From assembly GCA_002839355.1 (NCBI GenBank), contig PGXW01000007.1, positions 1 through 64,000 of the forward strand: 64,000 nt of DNA, in the 5' to 3' direction. The notes under the pieces were generated by a model. The model saw nothing but the letters and a program-made list of their open reading frames with translations, did not search any database and was not told the origin of the DNA. Made by a program: the position numbers and the translations under genes. Of the stretch, positions 1,312-24,455 are shown piece after piece. Origin of the DNA: Spirochaetae bacterium HGW-Spirochaetae-2 (lineage in GTDB: Bacteria; Spirochaetota; Spirochaetia; Sphaerochaetales; Sphaerochaetaceae). Each line of letters starts with the position of its first letter. Within the stretch, counting starts at the first letter, position 1.

Positions 1312-1863
1312 TATCTACACCCCCCTCTCAAAAAGTTCTATTTACCCTTATATATAAACATACACCCCTAAAACACAGAACTCAACCTTATCAACGATTG
1401 GTAAAGGTTTTGAACAATATCTGGTGTCAGACCCTCTTTTCCCCTCCCTCCCAGCTTTCTTCCGGCGGCCCCCCACCCACGCTTTTTGACCCCTCCACCC
1501 CTTACCCAAGCAATTATGCACATTTTATGCATATTTACCCCTTTATATGCACATTCTATACAGTTTAATTGGTACTAACCCCGTGTATTGTGTCACTTAG
1601 TTTGTATATTTATGCAACCGGTGGCCTATCTATCACGCGCGCGAGGGCCGAGTGACCCCTGAATTAACCGCTTTTTGCTTGGTTTGGTAGCGTGATTGCT
1701 TGTGTCTTGAATGTCGAGCCTCTTTAGTCTGTTGGGTGTCTGTGTTGTTGTGTTGTCTATTGGTGGAAAGCATACCACGGTATCACCCCGCATTGCTTTA
1801 AGTTTAAAGCTTTTCATGTTCCAAAAAACCAACAAAAAATCTTTTTTCAAACTTTTTTTGGTA
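1312..1863. other. Intergenic region, no gene seen
   Basis: About 550 bp without a credible gene. It has C-rich tracts around 1440-1500, runs of A and T around 1820-1860, and no good start with a ribosome binding site. Short open frames here have no protein-like composition. Confidence 0.5.
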
Positions 1864-1917
1864 GGTCACATACCGGCTGCACACTCCCCGTAGGGGAGAT
1901 GTGCTGCCGTATGTGCC
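1864..1917. repeat. 54-nt near-perfect inverted repeat
   Basis: The arms AGG-CACATA, GGC, GCACA and TCCCC on the left pair in order with GGGGA, TGTGC, GCC and TATGTG-CCT on the right around a GTA centre. Only short internal mismatches (for example T opposite T) interrupt the stem. There is no T tract on either strand in the terminator position. It could be a recombination, nicking or replication site, or an RNA hairpin upstream of the 1962 promoter. Confidence 0.7.
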
Positions 1918-1961
1918 TATGTGAGAACACCTTGCAAGCAAAAATATTTTCAAAAAAGTGA

Positions 1962-1991
1962 TTGACAGTTTTTTGGTCCTGTGTGTATGCT
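1962..1991 (+). promoter_or_regulatory. Strong promoter of the candidate large RNA
   Basis: TTGACA at 1962-1967, an 18-bp spacer, and TATGCT at 1986-1991. Transcription should start near 1998, directly at the palindrome 2001-2017. The first good start codon with a Shine-Dalgarno sequence is at 2614, so the transcript would have about 600 nt without a clear gene. Confidence 0.75.
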
Positions 1992-1997
1992 TGGGTC

Positions 1998-2590
1998 ATC
2001 GGTTGGACAGTCCAACCCAATCACAACACAGGAGGTGCCATTAACAGTTTGCTAGTTGCAATAGACCTTGCGGGGTTTAGCAACAGTGATACTTCCGTTT
2101 CAGAATTCGTTCCTTGCGGGGTGCGTTGAATGATTCAGGATTCGACGGTTGGAATACCGTTCCCGACATCAGTGGAATTGTAGCGAAAGCTTGCAAGTAT
2201 GCGGTAGCAAGCAAGTAGGAGGTGTCGGCGGTAGTGTGGATTTTTTTACATAGACCTACAGCATGGTGGGCAATCGCGGTGTAGTCCTTGCGAGGGAAAA
2301 CGAATGTTGGGATAGGACCCGGCAACTACACAAGCGGAATGAACGGGGGATAACCTGAAGCGGACGCTAAACTCATGTGCATAGGGCTGGAGTGATTGCT
2401 AGGTGTGGTATTCCCGATAGCGAAAGCATTATGCCCGAAAGGGAACAATGCAGGGCACAGGATTGTAGGCATACAATGCAAACCCTCTACAGAAAACTGT
2501 AGTCATAGCGACAATATTGTCACGAGCTTTGCATTATTACTTGTTTTGCAGGTAATTGTGGAACGCTTGTGCGTCCATACAACAAACAGC
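1998..2590 (+). ncRNA. Candidate large structured RNA (about 600 nt)
   Basis: Downstream of the 1962 promoter the sequence is crowded with local hairpins and lacks a convincing gene. Clear ones are: TTGCTA/TAGCAA at 2049-2083 enclosing AGACC/GGTTT; CGTTGAAT/ATTCGACG at 2124-2147; GCTTGC/GCAAGC at 2189-2212; GCATT/AATGC near 2426-2451 enclosing CCC-GAAA-GGG; ATTGT/ACAAT near 2462-2477; CTACAG-AAAA-CTGTAG near 2487-2502; and ACGC-TTGT-GCGT near 2563-2574. The motif CCTTGCGRGG occurs three times (about 2066, 2112 and 2287). The size, hairpin density and mobile-element location resemble large ornate phage RNAs such as GOLLD or ROOL, but I recognise no family signature. The 3' end is not marked by a terminator. 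An alternative is a chain of very short ORFs (for example 2396-2617). Confidence 0.5.
2001..2017. promoter_or_regulatory. Operator palindrome, probably for the RHH regulator
   Basis: GGTTGGAC-A-GTCCAACC is a perfect 8-bp inverted repeat with a 1-bp centre, placed at the expected transcription start. One half (CAGTCCAACCC) recurs at 3443-3453 inside the promoter of the ribbon-helix-helix gene 3239-3418. The shared sequence suggests that this small regulator binds both sites. It would also form a 5'-terminal hairpin in the RNA. Confidence 0.6.
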
Positions 2591-2613
2591 CGAAAAGGCA
2601 ATAGGAGTAAACT

Positions 2614-3183
2614 ATGAGCACAGAAAACACCGAAAAAATGACCGAGAAAGACAAGAAGGCCGCAATTGACGCAGTATTGGCATTGATAGCGAAAGATGCC
2701 CAAAAGGGTGTAGCCATGACTACAGGGGAAGTGGGCAAACTGCTTGCTCAGGTCGATGGTGTGCTATCGGATTTGGCCGCGAAAGTAGCAAAAACGGATG
2801 AGAATGCGCCGGTATGGAATTTGGATCTTACCCCTGTGACTATCACCATTGCAGGGGAAAAGCGTCAATGGATTGAAGTATCAGGTTTGGATAAAAATGC
2901 CCGAGTCCAACTGTCTGATGATGGTACGGGGAAAGTGGTGGTCCACGTCACACCCAAGAAGGCAAAAAGCGCGGAAGCCAAAGCATATTTTGACGCTATC
3001 GTTGGCGCTACAAAAGACCTTACTGTTGCGGTGACGGTGAGAAAAGCAGTGGCAGGTAAAACATTCCGGCAGGTGTGGGCAATTGCTGGTGCCCAACAGC
3101 AGAAGCGCGTGGAAAAGAAGTTTGCGGACCTGTGTCCCCCAATGGTCGAGAAAAAAGTAAAGGTGGTCAAGAAAGCGGCATAA
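2614..3183 (+). CDS. Hypothetical element protein, basic C terminus
   Basis: A 189-residue protein starting after AGGAG with a 6-nt spacer. Residues 1-60 are charged and probably helical. The middle (about 65-120) has alternating hydrophobic residues typical of beta structure. The C terminus is strongly basic (KKVKVVKKAA), which suggests nucleic-acid binding. There is no cysteine cluster, membrane segment or catalytic motif that I recognise. It is the first convincing gene after the 1962 promoter, so it would be co-transcribed with the structured leader, and it is followed directly by a tRNA-like fold. It could bind that RNA, but this is only an inference from position and charge. Confidence 0.7.
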   Translation: MSTENTEKMTEKDKKAAIDAVLALIAKDAQKGVAMTTGEVGKLLAQVDGVLSDLAAKVAKTDENAPVWNLDLTPVTITIAGEKRQWIEVSGLDKNARVQLSDDGTGKVVVHVTPKKAKSAEAKAYFDAIVGATKDLTVAVTVRKAVAGKTFRQVWAIAGAQQQKRVEKKFADLCPPMVEKKVKVVKKAA

Positions 3184-3191
3184 CTACCATT

Positions 3192-3238
3192 ACCCCGCAA
3201 CCGGTGTTTCAAGGGTGGTTCAACTCCACCCGCGGGGT
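3192..3238 (+). other. Hairpin resembling tRNA acceptor/T-arm stack
   Basis: GGGTGG-TTCAACT-CCACCC (3213-3231) is a 6-bp stem with a 7-nt loop of T-loop type. Its 3' strand runs directly into GCGGGGT (3232-3238), which pairs with ACCCCGC at 3192-3198. This gives a coaxial 13-bp helix like a tRNA top half, with only 14 nt in place of the D and anticodon arms. It follows the stop codon of the 2614 gene. It lacks a T tract, so it is not an ordinary terminator. Confidence 0.5.
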
Positions 3239-3418
3239 TTATGTGTCCTTGTGTTGCATGTAAAACCGAATAGCATCTTTAACAACACCCTGCATTGAAG
3301 GTTGGGATTCCAACCATTCAATAATGTCAGAATCAGTCGAACGCATTAGGTTAAGGACGACTTTTCGCTTGTGTTGTTTTAAGTATTCAGCATGTTTCTC
3401 TTTATCTTTATAAGGCAT
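3239..3418 (-). CDS. Small ribbon-helix-helix (CopG/Arc-like) regulator
   Basis: A 59-residue protein. The N terminus is basic (YKDKEKHAEYLKQHKRK), followed by a short beta strand (VVLNLMRS) and two predicted helices (DSDIIEWLESQP and MQGVVKDAIRFYMQ), the ribbon-helix-helix order. Such proteins are usually dimeric DNA binders in plasmids and phages. It starts at ATG after TAGGAG. Its promoter spacer contains CAGTCCAACCC, also found in the palindrome 2001-2017, which suggests autoregulation and control of the 1962 promoter. Confidence 0.75.
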   Translation of the reverse strand: MPYKDKEKHAEYLKQHKRKVVLNLMRSTDSDIIEWLESQPSMQGVVKDAIRFYMQHKDT

Positions 3419-3434
3419 TTTAACTCCTACATTT

Positions 3435-3463
3435 AGGATAGTCAGTCCAACCCATTAAATCAA
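3435..3463 (-). promoter_or_regulatory. Promoter of RHH gene with operator half site
   Basis: On the minus strand, TTGATT (3458-3463) and TATCCT (3435-3440) are separated by 17 bp. The spacer contains GGGTTGGACTG, matching half of the palindrome at 2001-2017. This placement would let the RHH protein repress its own promoter. Confidence 0.6.
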
Positions 3464-3483
3464 GGGGAAACCGTATTTTCCCC
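3464..3483. other. Hairpin upstream of the ArdC operon
   Basis: GGGGAAA-CCGTAT-TTTCCCC forms a 7-bp stem, followed by AAAATTTTTA. It could end transcription coming from either side. A second small hairpin, GCCC-AAA-GGGC, precedes the AAGGAGG of the 3518 gene. Confidence 0.4.
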
Positions 3484-13707: not shown

Positions 13708-15210
13708 ATGAAAATGCATTACAGGCTAAATAAATATGCTTTACTGAGAGAAGCATTGCGTGAATTTAATACAGAATTGGATTTATTTCTGAGACCACTT
13801 GAATGCTCAAGAAATGACGAAATTAGAGAATGGAGTATTTTTAGAATATCTCCATTTACTTCCGAAGAATTAATTAGTAAATATTCGCCGGAAGAGATGA
13901 AACAACTCTGTATAGAAATCGATAATGAAATATCTTCGGAAGAATGCTTAGATGTGTTCGAAGGAAATGATAAAAGCGTATATGAATTTGCGTTTGAATA
14001 TTTTAAAGAAAGTAGCTCCTGGAAGGAATTCAAATTGAACAAAGGAGAAAAATGGCAAGAACTCGAAGAAAATATTAAGTCAGGGAATTGGAGGTATTGT
14101 ATCAGGTTATTATCGAATGTGATTGGATATTTACCATCAACTATAACTCAAGTTAGCAGAGTAGCTGACATCGTCCCAGTAAACGAGATGGAAAAAGAAT
14201 TGTTGAGTCTTGAAGATGTTCAAAGCCTACAAAATTATCGTGATAAAATATTCGCCTCGCGCTTCTTTGATTCCAAGTCTACTTTGTCTGGAAAATCATT
14301 ACCAATAGATAGTTTAAAAGCAAGAAAGAATGCCAAAATAATATTTTTTTATTTTTATGGCAAACTTATTGATTCTCTCAGCTTAGCTGTAAAAGACCAT
14401 GTACTATTTATAGAAGAAATTATCGGTCAATATTGGGAAATAATAAAAAGTAAGAAAAAAAGAACTACATATAATGATGAATGGGGAGTACAACATGAGG
14501 AGGGCTGGATTAAAGAATTGGAATATTTTATAGAGAGGGTTGTTAGTCCTCGAGTAGTTGTTGATGATGATTTAATCTATCGATTAGGAGTGGATGAGTG
14601 GTGTTTATGGTTACTAAAACCTGATTACCCAGAGGAGGAGTTTATAATGAGCCTCTCGCTGGCACCACCGGAGGATATTGAAAATCGGCTCACAAATTCA
14701 CAGTATTTTGATAATTTGCAGTACTATAAAAATAAATGGCTTGTTTCATTAAGCAAGGTAATAATTGAGGTTAGGTTATTATCGGAGAGGACAAATCATG
14801 AGAATGAAAAAGTTGCAGAAAAAGAGGGGAATGCCCGTGGTGATTTAGTAGATGAGAATGTAGATGAAGAATCTGAATATAAGAATATAGGAGTCGAATA
14901 TGAATTTTTCGTCAAGGATTTACTCGAAGCAAATGATTATAAAATCGAATTAACCCCAACTACAGGTGATCAAGGTGTTGACATAATTGCAATTCGAAAT
15001 GGGAAAAAAATTGCAATTCAATGTAAGTCCTATTCTAGTTTGGTTGGTAATACTGCTATACAGGAAGTAATTTCAGGAAAGCTATTTTATGATTGTGAAA
15101 TAGCTTGCGTGATTACCAATTCATCATTTACTCGTTCTGCAATGCAATTAGCCAATAAAGCTGGAGTAATTCTTTGTTCGTATAATGACCTAAGACCATT
15201 AATTTTATAA
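13708..15210 (+). CDS. Mrr-type restriction endonuclease-like protein with unknown N-terminal region
   Basis: A 500-residue protein. The last 107 residues (about 394-500) form an Mrr_cat domain: 'YEFFVKDLLEANDY', 'TTGDQGVDIIA' with the catalytic Asp, and 'IAIQCKSY' as the QxK motif. 'GVILCSYNDL' closes the fold. The first 390 residues are long, charged and helical, with no recognised domain; they may recognise the target or sense infection. The coding sequence is strikingly A/T-rich relative to its neighbours, so it probably arrived separately. No methyltransferase is encoded nearby, which points to a type IV (modified-DNA) enzyme or an abortive-infection effector. Confidence 0.8.
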   Translation: MKMHYRLNKYALLREALREFNTELDLFLRPLECSRNDEIREWSIFRISPFTSEELISKYSPEEMKQLCIEIDNEISSEECLDVFEGNDKSVYEFAFEYFKESSSWKEFKLNKGEKWQELEENIKSGNWRYCIRLLSNVIGYLPSTITQVSRVADIVPVNEMEKELLSLEDVQSLQNYRDKIFASRFFDSKSTLSGKSLPIDSLKARKNAKIIFFYFYGKLIDSLSLAVKDHVLFIEEIIGQYWEIIKSKKKRTTYNDEWGVQHEEGWIKELEYFIERVVSPRVVVDDDLIYRLGVDEWCLWLLKPDYPEEEFIMSLSLAPPEDIENRLTNSQYFDNLQYYKNKWLVSLSKVIIEVRLLSERTNHENEKVAEKEGNARGDLVDENVDEESEYKNIGVEYEFFVKDLLEANDYKIELTPTTGDQGVDIIAIRNGKKIAIQCKSYSSLVGNTAIQEVISGKLFYDCEIACVITNSSFTRSAMQLANKAGVILCSYNDLRPLIL

Positions 15211-15795: not shown

Positions 15796-15803
15796 CATTT
15801 TGA

Positions 15804-15851
15804 GGTGCTAGTGGGCGAGAGCTTGTGCTGGTTCAAGTCCAGTCTGCCGCA
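15804..15851 (+). other. 3' half of a class II tRNA gene, right attachment site (attR)
   Basis: The T arm GCTGG-TTCAAGT-CCAGT is at 15827-15843, the 3' acceptor strand CTGCCGC at 15844-15850, and discriminator A at 15851. A long variable-arm-like hairpin (GGGC-GAGA-GCTT) precedes it, as in tRNA-Leu or tRNA-Ser; Leu is more likely. There is no 5' acceptor GCGGCAG or anticodon arm upstream. Phage integration restores the tRNA at one end and leaves such a fragment at the other, so the intact gene should be left of this window. Confidence 0.75.
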
Positions 15852-23940: not shown

Positions 23941-23942
23941 AG

Positions 23943-24014
23943 AGCGAGAGACGGGACTTGAACCCGCGACATCCACCTTGGCAAGGTGGAGCTCTACCAC
24001 TGAGCTACTCTCGC
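23943..24014 (-). tRNA. tRNA-Gly (GCC)
   Basis: Acceptor GCGAGAG/CTCTCGC, D arm with GTAGCTCAGTGGTAGAGC, anticodon loop CTTGCCAAG with GCC, T arm CGGGTTCAAGTCCCG. It is 72 nt with no encoded CCA. Last gene of the five-tRNA operon. Confidence 0.93.
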
Positions 24015-24057
24015 AAACATTCGTTGCATAGTACTGACTTACGCCCCCAAGGTCAAG

Positions 24058-24138
24058 TGCGAGAGGAGGGATTTGAACCCTCACACCTACGGTACTAGAT
24101 CCTAAGTCTAGCGTGTCTGCCAATTCCACCACTCTCGC
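24058..24138 (-). tRNA. tRNA-Leu (TAG)
   Basis: A class II tRNA with long variable arm. Acceptor GCGAGAG/CTCTCGC, anticodon loop ACTTAGGAT with TAG, T arm GAGGGTTCAAATCCCTC. CCA is not encoded. Confidence 0.92.
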
Positions 24139-24178
24139 AGTGGTCTCCATCCGTTTGACCGGATGATTATGCATGTTA

Positions 24179-24251
24179 TGAGCCGCAAAGGGATCGAACC
24201 TTTGACCCGCAGATTAAGAGTCTGCTGCTCTACCAGCTGAGCTAGCGGCCC
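24179..24251 (-). tRNA. tRNA-Lys (CTT)
   Basis: Acceptor GGGCCGC pairs with GCGGCTC with one G-T pair. Anticodon loop ACTCTTAAT with CTT; T arm AAAGGTTCGATCCCTTT. Discriminator A, no CCA. Confidence 0.92.
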
Positions 24252-24273
24252 AAATACTTGTAAAAAACCAATT

Positions 24274-24347
<74 letters not shown>

Positions 24348-24382
24348 ATCACTACCACGTATGCACAGCAATGCTATACAAG

Positions 24383-24455
24383 GGTGGATGACGGGGCTCG
24401 AACCCGCAACAACCAGATCCACAATCTGGTGCTCTACCATTGAACTACATCCACC
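24383..24455 (-). tRNA. tRNA-His (GTG)
   Basis: Acceptor GTGGATG/CATCCAC with the extra G at -1 facing C73, the His identity element. Anticodon loop ATTGTGGAT with GTG; T arm CGGGTTCGAGCCCCG. First gene of the tRNA operon. Confidence 0.93.

Follow-up and report, generated by a model that had tools for sequence, protein, structure and literature searches.

Evidence for a large structured RNA with a partner protein gene in a spirochete prophage, without detectable homology to GOLLD or ROOL

The large phage RNAs GOLLD and ROOL assemble into cages, and neither has a known function (PMC12286853). The current study describes a candidate RNA of about 600 nucleotides (nt) in a prophage of Spirochaetae bacterium HGW-Spirochaetae-2, which precedes a gene for a co-occurring protein (the partner gene) and a short tRNA-like hairpin. 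All coordinates refer to the window, i.e., the whole stretch of 64,000 nt that was analyzed from the forward strand of contig PGXW01000007.1 (GCA_002839355.1). The RNA resembles GOLLD in its size, its prophage setting, and the combination of conserved 3' with variable 5' regions that is found in both (PMC12286853), but it is part of an early operon, alongside a partner protein gene and a tRNA-like hairpin, and not of a tRNA island, and GOLLD is often longer than 800 nt. With ROOL it shares a similar size (659 nt in one example), phage or prophage encoding, and a highly structured nature, whereas no protein partner of ROOL has been identified (PMC12286853). The lack of an Rfam match distinguishes it from both. 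The initial annotation had proposed either a new RNA or a divergent member of these families, and the latter is not supported by the searches: at the gathering score the window contained no match to GOLLD, ROOL, or OLE and no relevant match to any other family of Rfam 15, positions 1400 to 3300 yielded nothing relevant at expectation values (E) of up to 5, and six homologous loci yielded no match at E values of up to 1. The RNA and its homologues are therefore not detectably GOLLD, ROOL, or OLE, and because homology was not detected, the RNA is assigned to neither GOLLD nor ROOL.

The region from about position 1998 to 2605 almost certainly encodes a real, conserved structured RNA, as judged from its predicted folding and from base-pair changes among homologues. 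The plus strand between 1998 and 2613 has a minimum free energy of -205.2 kcal/mol, corresponding to z-scores of -5.3 (20 shuffles) and -3.5 (60 shuffles), while the minus strand reaches -2.0 and -1.4 in the same two tests. Of the local hairpins that had initially been noticed, those with GAAA and AAAA loops are conserved in homologues. The 3' core was aligned for six members, after trimming of an insertion of about 41 nt in two of them (G117 and G095) and with a third (G110) ending at a contig end. In the named core helices, two-sided changes affect 13 of 34 pairs, and 94.9% of the cells are paired, compared with 32 to 49% when the partners are slid; inclusion of the longer 3' hairpin gives 15 of 36 pairs and 94.2% versus 31 to 46%. 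The slide control is somewhat favorable, as the structures were partly derived from the same aligned sequences, but this derivation does not readily account for the number of two-sided changes or for a shuffle control in which none of 500 replicates attained the observed covariation. The middle region contributes another stem (CCAG-UACGA/UCGUA-UGG, with variants), in which pairing reaches 100% and five of the nine pairs covary. Together with the recurring promoter, the prophage setting, and the absence of conserved reading frames (see below), the compensatory changes beyond the controls support the initial proposal of a structured RNA of large size that has a promoter to itself. Neither of the outcomes named at the outset as refuting it, a lack of covariation or conserved frames, was observed.

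Comparison of the members reveals that the 5' domain changes faster than the 3' core, which is conserved. The 3' part of the RNA is even better conserved than the partner gene between G117 and G095 (96.9% versus 90.8% identity) and between the two copies of another genome, G094a and G094b (98.3% versus 93.0%); this relation fails for pairs involving locus L033, where the RNA has insertions. A match to covariance model R1 (2401 to 2578) places the 3' limit at position 2578 at least, and the RNA probably ends with a hairpin at about 2590 to 2600, just 5' of the ribosome-binding site of the partner gene. The three copies of CCTTGCGRGG that were already recognized in the initial annotation lie at 2066 to 2075, 2112 to 2121, and 2286 to 2295. 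Since their U[UGCG]G caps are replaced by UUCG caps in the G094 members, the motif represents a UNCG-type hairpin cap. Close to the 5' end, an AGGAGG hexamer may bind ribosomes (Table 1).

Three further observations concern the sequence of the RNA. In L005 and L022 (G103), the element GTTTTTTGACAG is located at the 5' end rather than in the middle of the RNA, as if domains had been rearranged. A U6 tract and an A-rich loop are perfectly complementary over 9 to 10 nt in L033 and G094 only. The sequence TGATTCAGGATTCGACGG (2131 to 2148), which resembles the start of canonical tmRNA, was treated as a chance similarity; it is neither present in the host tmRNA nor common to the homologues, and with RF00023 the host's own tmRNA alone passed the cut-off in the genome, with none in the window.

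Homologous RNAs are located immediately 5' of the partner gene in G117 and G095, while the order in G103 is partner gene, tRNA-like hairpin, and RNA, the latter preceding another gene. With the G117 RNA as a DNA query, two more genomes were added, G094 (two copies) and G110, and a motif and pattern scan detected the RNA in three IMG/VR contigs (L032 to L034), with Sphaerochaeta halotolerans as the one identified carrier. Most of the other pattern-scan matches were examined with R1 or by reading and were not homologous. Within the order, model R1 matched 6 of 139 genomes; in the samples drawn at higher ranks it matched 5 of 395 (class) and 3 of 393 (phylum), all from two genera of one family. 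The G103 RNA, which was outside the training set, scored an E value of 1e-4. The genome samples are partial, so that relatives elsewhere are possible. Phage and plasmid records, searched at the DNA level, gave no match. No earlier report of the RNA was found in the open literature searched, subscription journals being outside this coverage.

The RNA locus is part of a prophage, in agreement with the mobile-element context assumed at the outset. Genes for the large terminase subunit and a head-tail connector lie close to the RNA in homologous loci, and early recombination genes are present in the window. A 52-base-pair (bp) repeat (15800 to 15851) has an identical counterpart on contig C60, in the 3' portion of tRNA-Leu(GAG), which marks it as the attachment site and means that the prophage spans at least two contigs. 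There is no tRNA island beside the RNA; five tRNAs at 23942 to 24454 lie beyond the attachment site at about 15.85 kb.

The TTGACA-N18-TATGCT promoter reported in the initial annotation is present in front of the RNA. Matches to TTGACA-type promoters are common by chance (5 seen versus 3.6 expected in the region), but the promoter is credible because an equivalent one, 543 to 692 nt upstream of the next gene or the contig end, recurs in seven of eight homologous loci. The operator palindrome described at the start of the RNA proved to be perfect, and with up to three mismatches allowed, a single further copy was found in the 64 kb. The latter lies beside a gene for a small putative repressor (59 amino acids [aa]), whose product had no Pfam match at the cut-off. 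Small proteins of 59 to 88 aa with a conserved beta-helix-helix pattern adjoin the RNA in all eight loci, suggesting a ribbon-helix-helix fold, and the operator-like repeats beside their genes vary from locus to locus.

The gene starting at position 2614, which had been singled out as the first credible one, has homologues within the family. Its protein lacks a match in Pfam, PHROGs, and NCBIfam. Among the 139 genomes of the order, relatives occur in three genomes of a sister genus (G117, G095, and G103), and in the 395 genomes of the class each partner gene is situated at an RNA locus. A single-sequence search of phages, plasmids, IMG/VR, and genome contigs returned nothing, and an alignment search returned just the two IMG/VR contigs already in the set. 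According to the layout of the unit, RNA and partner gene would be cotranscribed, a point that the initial annotation did not contain.

The tRNA-like hairpin is located behind the partner gene or close by, and equivalents were found in L023 (5329 to 5376), L022 (5392 to 5439), and, on the minus strand, L030 (2208 to 2255), L031 (2047 to 2094), and L033 (3269 to 3316). Among four members, 6 of its 13 pairs show two-sided changes. A hairpin model built without the window nevertheless matches positions 3191 to 3240, with E values of 8e-8 (window) and 4.5e-6 (genome), as the sole match below 0.01 in its own genome, and at E values below 1e-5 its matches in the 139 genomes of the order are confined to RNA loci. 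ARAGORN missed the hairpin, and the regions scanned contained no Rfam match to it. In common with tmRNA and viral tRNA-like structures, it has an acceptor-like stem stacked on a T-arm and a canonical UUCRANY loop and lacks the anticodon arm, but it differs by a 6-bp T-stem, a linker of 12 to 14 nt, its position behind an ordinary protein gene, and the missing Rfam match. The hairpin would probably recruit tRNA-processing enzymes, e.g., RNase P, for cleavage or protection of the transcript. In all six homologous loci tested, a strong intrinsic terminator lies between the unit and the next early gene, immediately before the latter. The terminator hairpins (L023 5383 to 5403 and equivalents) have a similar AGGTTAA loop, and their stems change.

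Table 1. Position of the RNA, its structural elements, and adjoining features in the window
Feature	Position	Strand	Remark
Sigma-70-type promoter TTGACA-N18-TATGCT	1962..1991	+	10/12 match; inferred transcription start ~1998
Large structured non-coding RNA	1998..2605	+	Ends inferred; based on folding, covariance model, and covariation
Perfect palindromic operator GGTTGGACAGTCCAACC	2001..2017	.	At inferred transcription start; homologous loci have locus-specific operator-like repeats there
AGGAGG, Shine-Dalgarno-like hexamer	2030..2035	+	Not followed by a start codon; 5/7 promoter-bearing loci have it near the 5' end
First CCTTGCGGGG, in a 5'-domain hairpin with UNCG-type (UGCG) cap	2062..2079	+	
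Second copy of CCTTGCGGGG	2112..2121	+	
Third UGCG-capped hairpin, CCTTGCGAGG	2285..2296	+	
Conserved 3' core	2401..2578	+	End-to-end match to covariance model R1
Stem GCATT/AATGC around CCC-GAAA-GGG hairpin	2426..2451	+	GAAA hairpin itself 2434-2443, conserved in homologues
Hairpin AUUGUA-GGCA-UACAAU	2462..2477	+	CUGUA/UACAG and GCGUA/UACGC in homologues
Hairpin CUACAG-AAAA-CUGUAG	2487..2502	+	Conserved; 5/5 counted helix pairs covary across members
Long 3' hairpin ACGAGC..AUUAC..GUAAU..GCUUGU	2522..2570	+	Included in covariation count
Partner protein gene, 189 aa	2614..3183	+	No known family; in the genome samples found solely beside the RNA
tRNA-like hairpin, 48 nt	3191..3240	+	7-bp acceptor-like stem and T-arm, UUCAACU loop, anticodon arm absent
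Putative ribbon-helix-helix repressor, 59 aa	3239..3418	-	Homologues adjoin the RNA in 8/8 loci
Second operator, imperfect (3 mismatches)	3436..3452	.	Upstream of, and beside, the repressor gene
Terminator-like hairpin, weak	3464..3483	+	Separates the unit from the next early gene (3518); scored on both strands

Two neighboring features of the prophage deserve mention. A 500-aa protein with an Mrr-type restriction endonuclease domain is encoded at the prophage end (13708 to 15210) and possibly represents a defense gene. TATGCA iterons are present upstream of the repressor and RNA region in the window (about 1515 to 1560), L023 (3337 to 3386), and L022 (3900 to 3947). In the homologues they are spaced by 11-19-11 nt and adjoin a C-rich block (CCGCCGCCCCCCCTGCC), and iterons and block together are a candidate phage origin, pac, or cos site.

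With moderate confidence, we interpret the locus as encoding a stand-alone, large, structured early phage RNA that acts together with its partner from a repressor-controlled prophage promoter. In the dormant prophage, the small ribbon-helix-helix-like protein would occupy the operators at the promoter. Its departure would give rise to a single transcript comprising the RNA, the partner protein message, and the tRNA-like hairpin, which would mostly extend to a terminator. The RNA, whose fixed architecture is shown by covariation and conservation, would act in trans early in induction, probably either jointly with its partner protein or in the form of an RNA assembly. Whether it works in trans as a separate molecule or in cis is evenly balanced on the sequence data. 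A more specific proposal, to which we hold only tentatively, is an independent family of "ornate" large phage RNAs unrelated to GOLLD and ROOL, i.e., an induced ribonucleoprotein with a dedicated partner protein, the RNA being carried on a transcript with a mini tRNA-like tail. Several findings speak against a stand-alone RNA acting with its partner. No terminator of its own ends the RNA, and in all complete loci it continues into a gene, which would allow an action in cis. Furthermore, the set of independent members is small (about eight loci, two genera), the G094 and G110 members fold with weak z-scores (-0.9 to -1.3), and G095 has no tRNA-like hairpin near its partner gene.

The chief competitor, which we consider unlikely but serious, is a processive antiterminator acting in cis, whose nascent RNA would ride RNA polymerase past the terminator behind the unit and thereby allow expression of the early operon. 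Precedent exists in the put RNA of phage HK022, which suppresses pausing and termination as a nascent part of the early transcript (PMC9378689). Like the present RNA, put (PMC9378689) and the EAR antiterminator RNAs precede terminators and are found where an early phage or operon transcript begins. The regular occurrence of the strong terminator fits this proposal, as does the position of the RNA upstream of it in all cases, including G103. The ribosome-binding site of the next early gene directly follows, and without space for a promoter in between, read-through must occur. The same gene order would, however, be expected from leaky termination; moreover, the terminator of the window is weak. 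The put RNA is a small two-stem element, far exceeded by the roughly 600 nt of the present RNA, which can also follow a gene (G103), and antitermination would explain neither the one-to-one partner protein nor the tRNA-like hairpin.

A translational or riboswitch-like leader of the partner gene is improbable. The RNA ends just 5' of the ribosome-binding site of this gene in six loci, and the predicted fold of the window pairs AGUUUGCU with AGUAAACU beside that site, but the closing helix was not found by eye in other members and the site lies outside the conserved core. In G103 the RNA comes after the partner gene and before another one, and hence it is not simply the leader of that gene. Scarcely more probable is a role in phage DNA replication or packaging, as an origin transcript or packaging RNA. 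The RNA is situated between the terminase and early genes, downstream of the iterons and the C-rich block, and extrachromosomal mycobacterial prophages are known to have RNA-based origins (PMC7157519). The iterons are nevertheless 400 to 780 nt away from the promoter, and nothing ties the RNA to packaging. Packaging RNAs such as the phi29 pRNA are much smaller. Short protein genes instead of an RNA are hardly credible. Chance short open frames exist, but no frame is conserved among the members compared: L033 disrupts the longest one common to G117 and G095 (50 aa), whose differences number 2, 3, and 5 at the first, second, and third codon positions, respectively, and the strong compensatory base-pair changes likewise argue for RNA.

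A further, unrelated family of GOLLD- and ROOL-like size that has a co-occurring protein and a defined repressor switch, and whose host genus (Sphaerochaeta) is in culture, would make a common purpose of such RNAs testable. The tRNA-like hairpin would provide a second handle on their processing.
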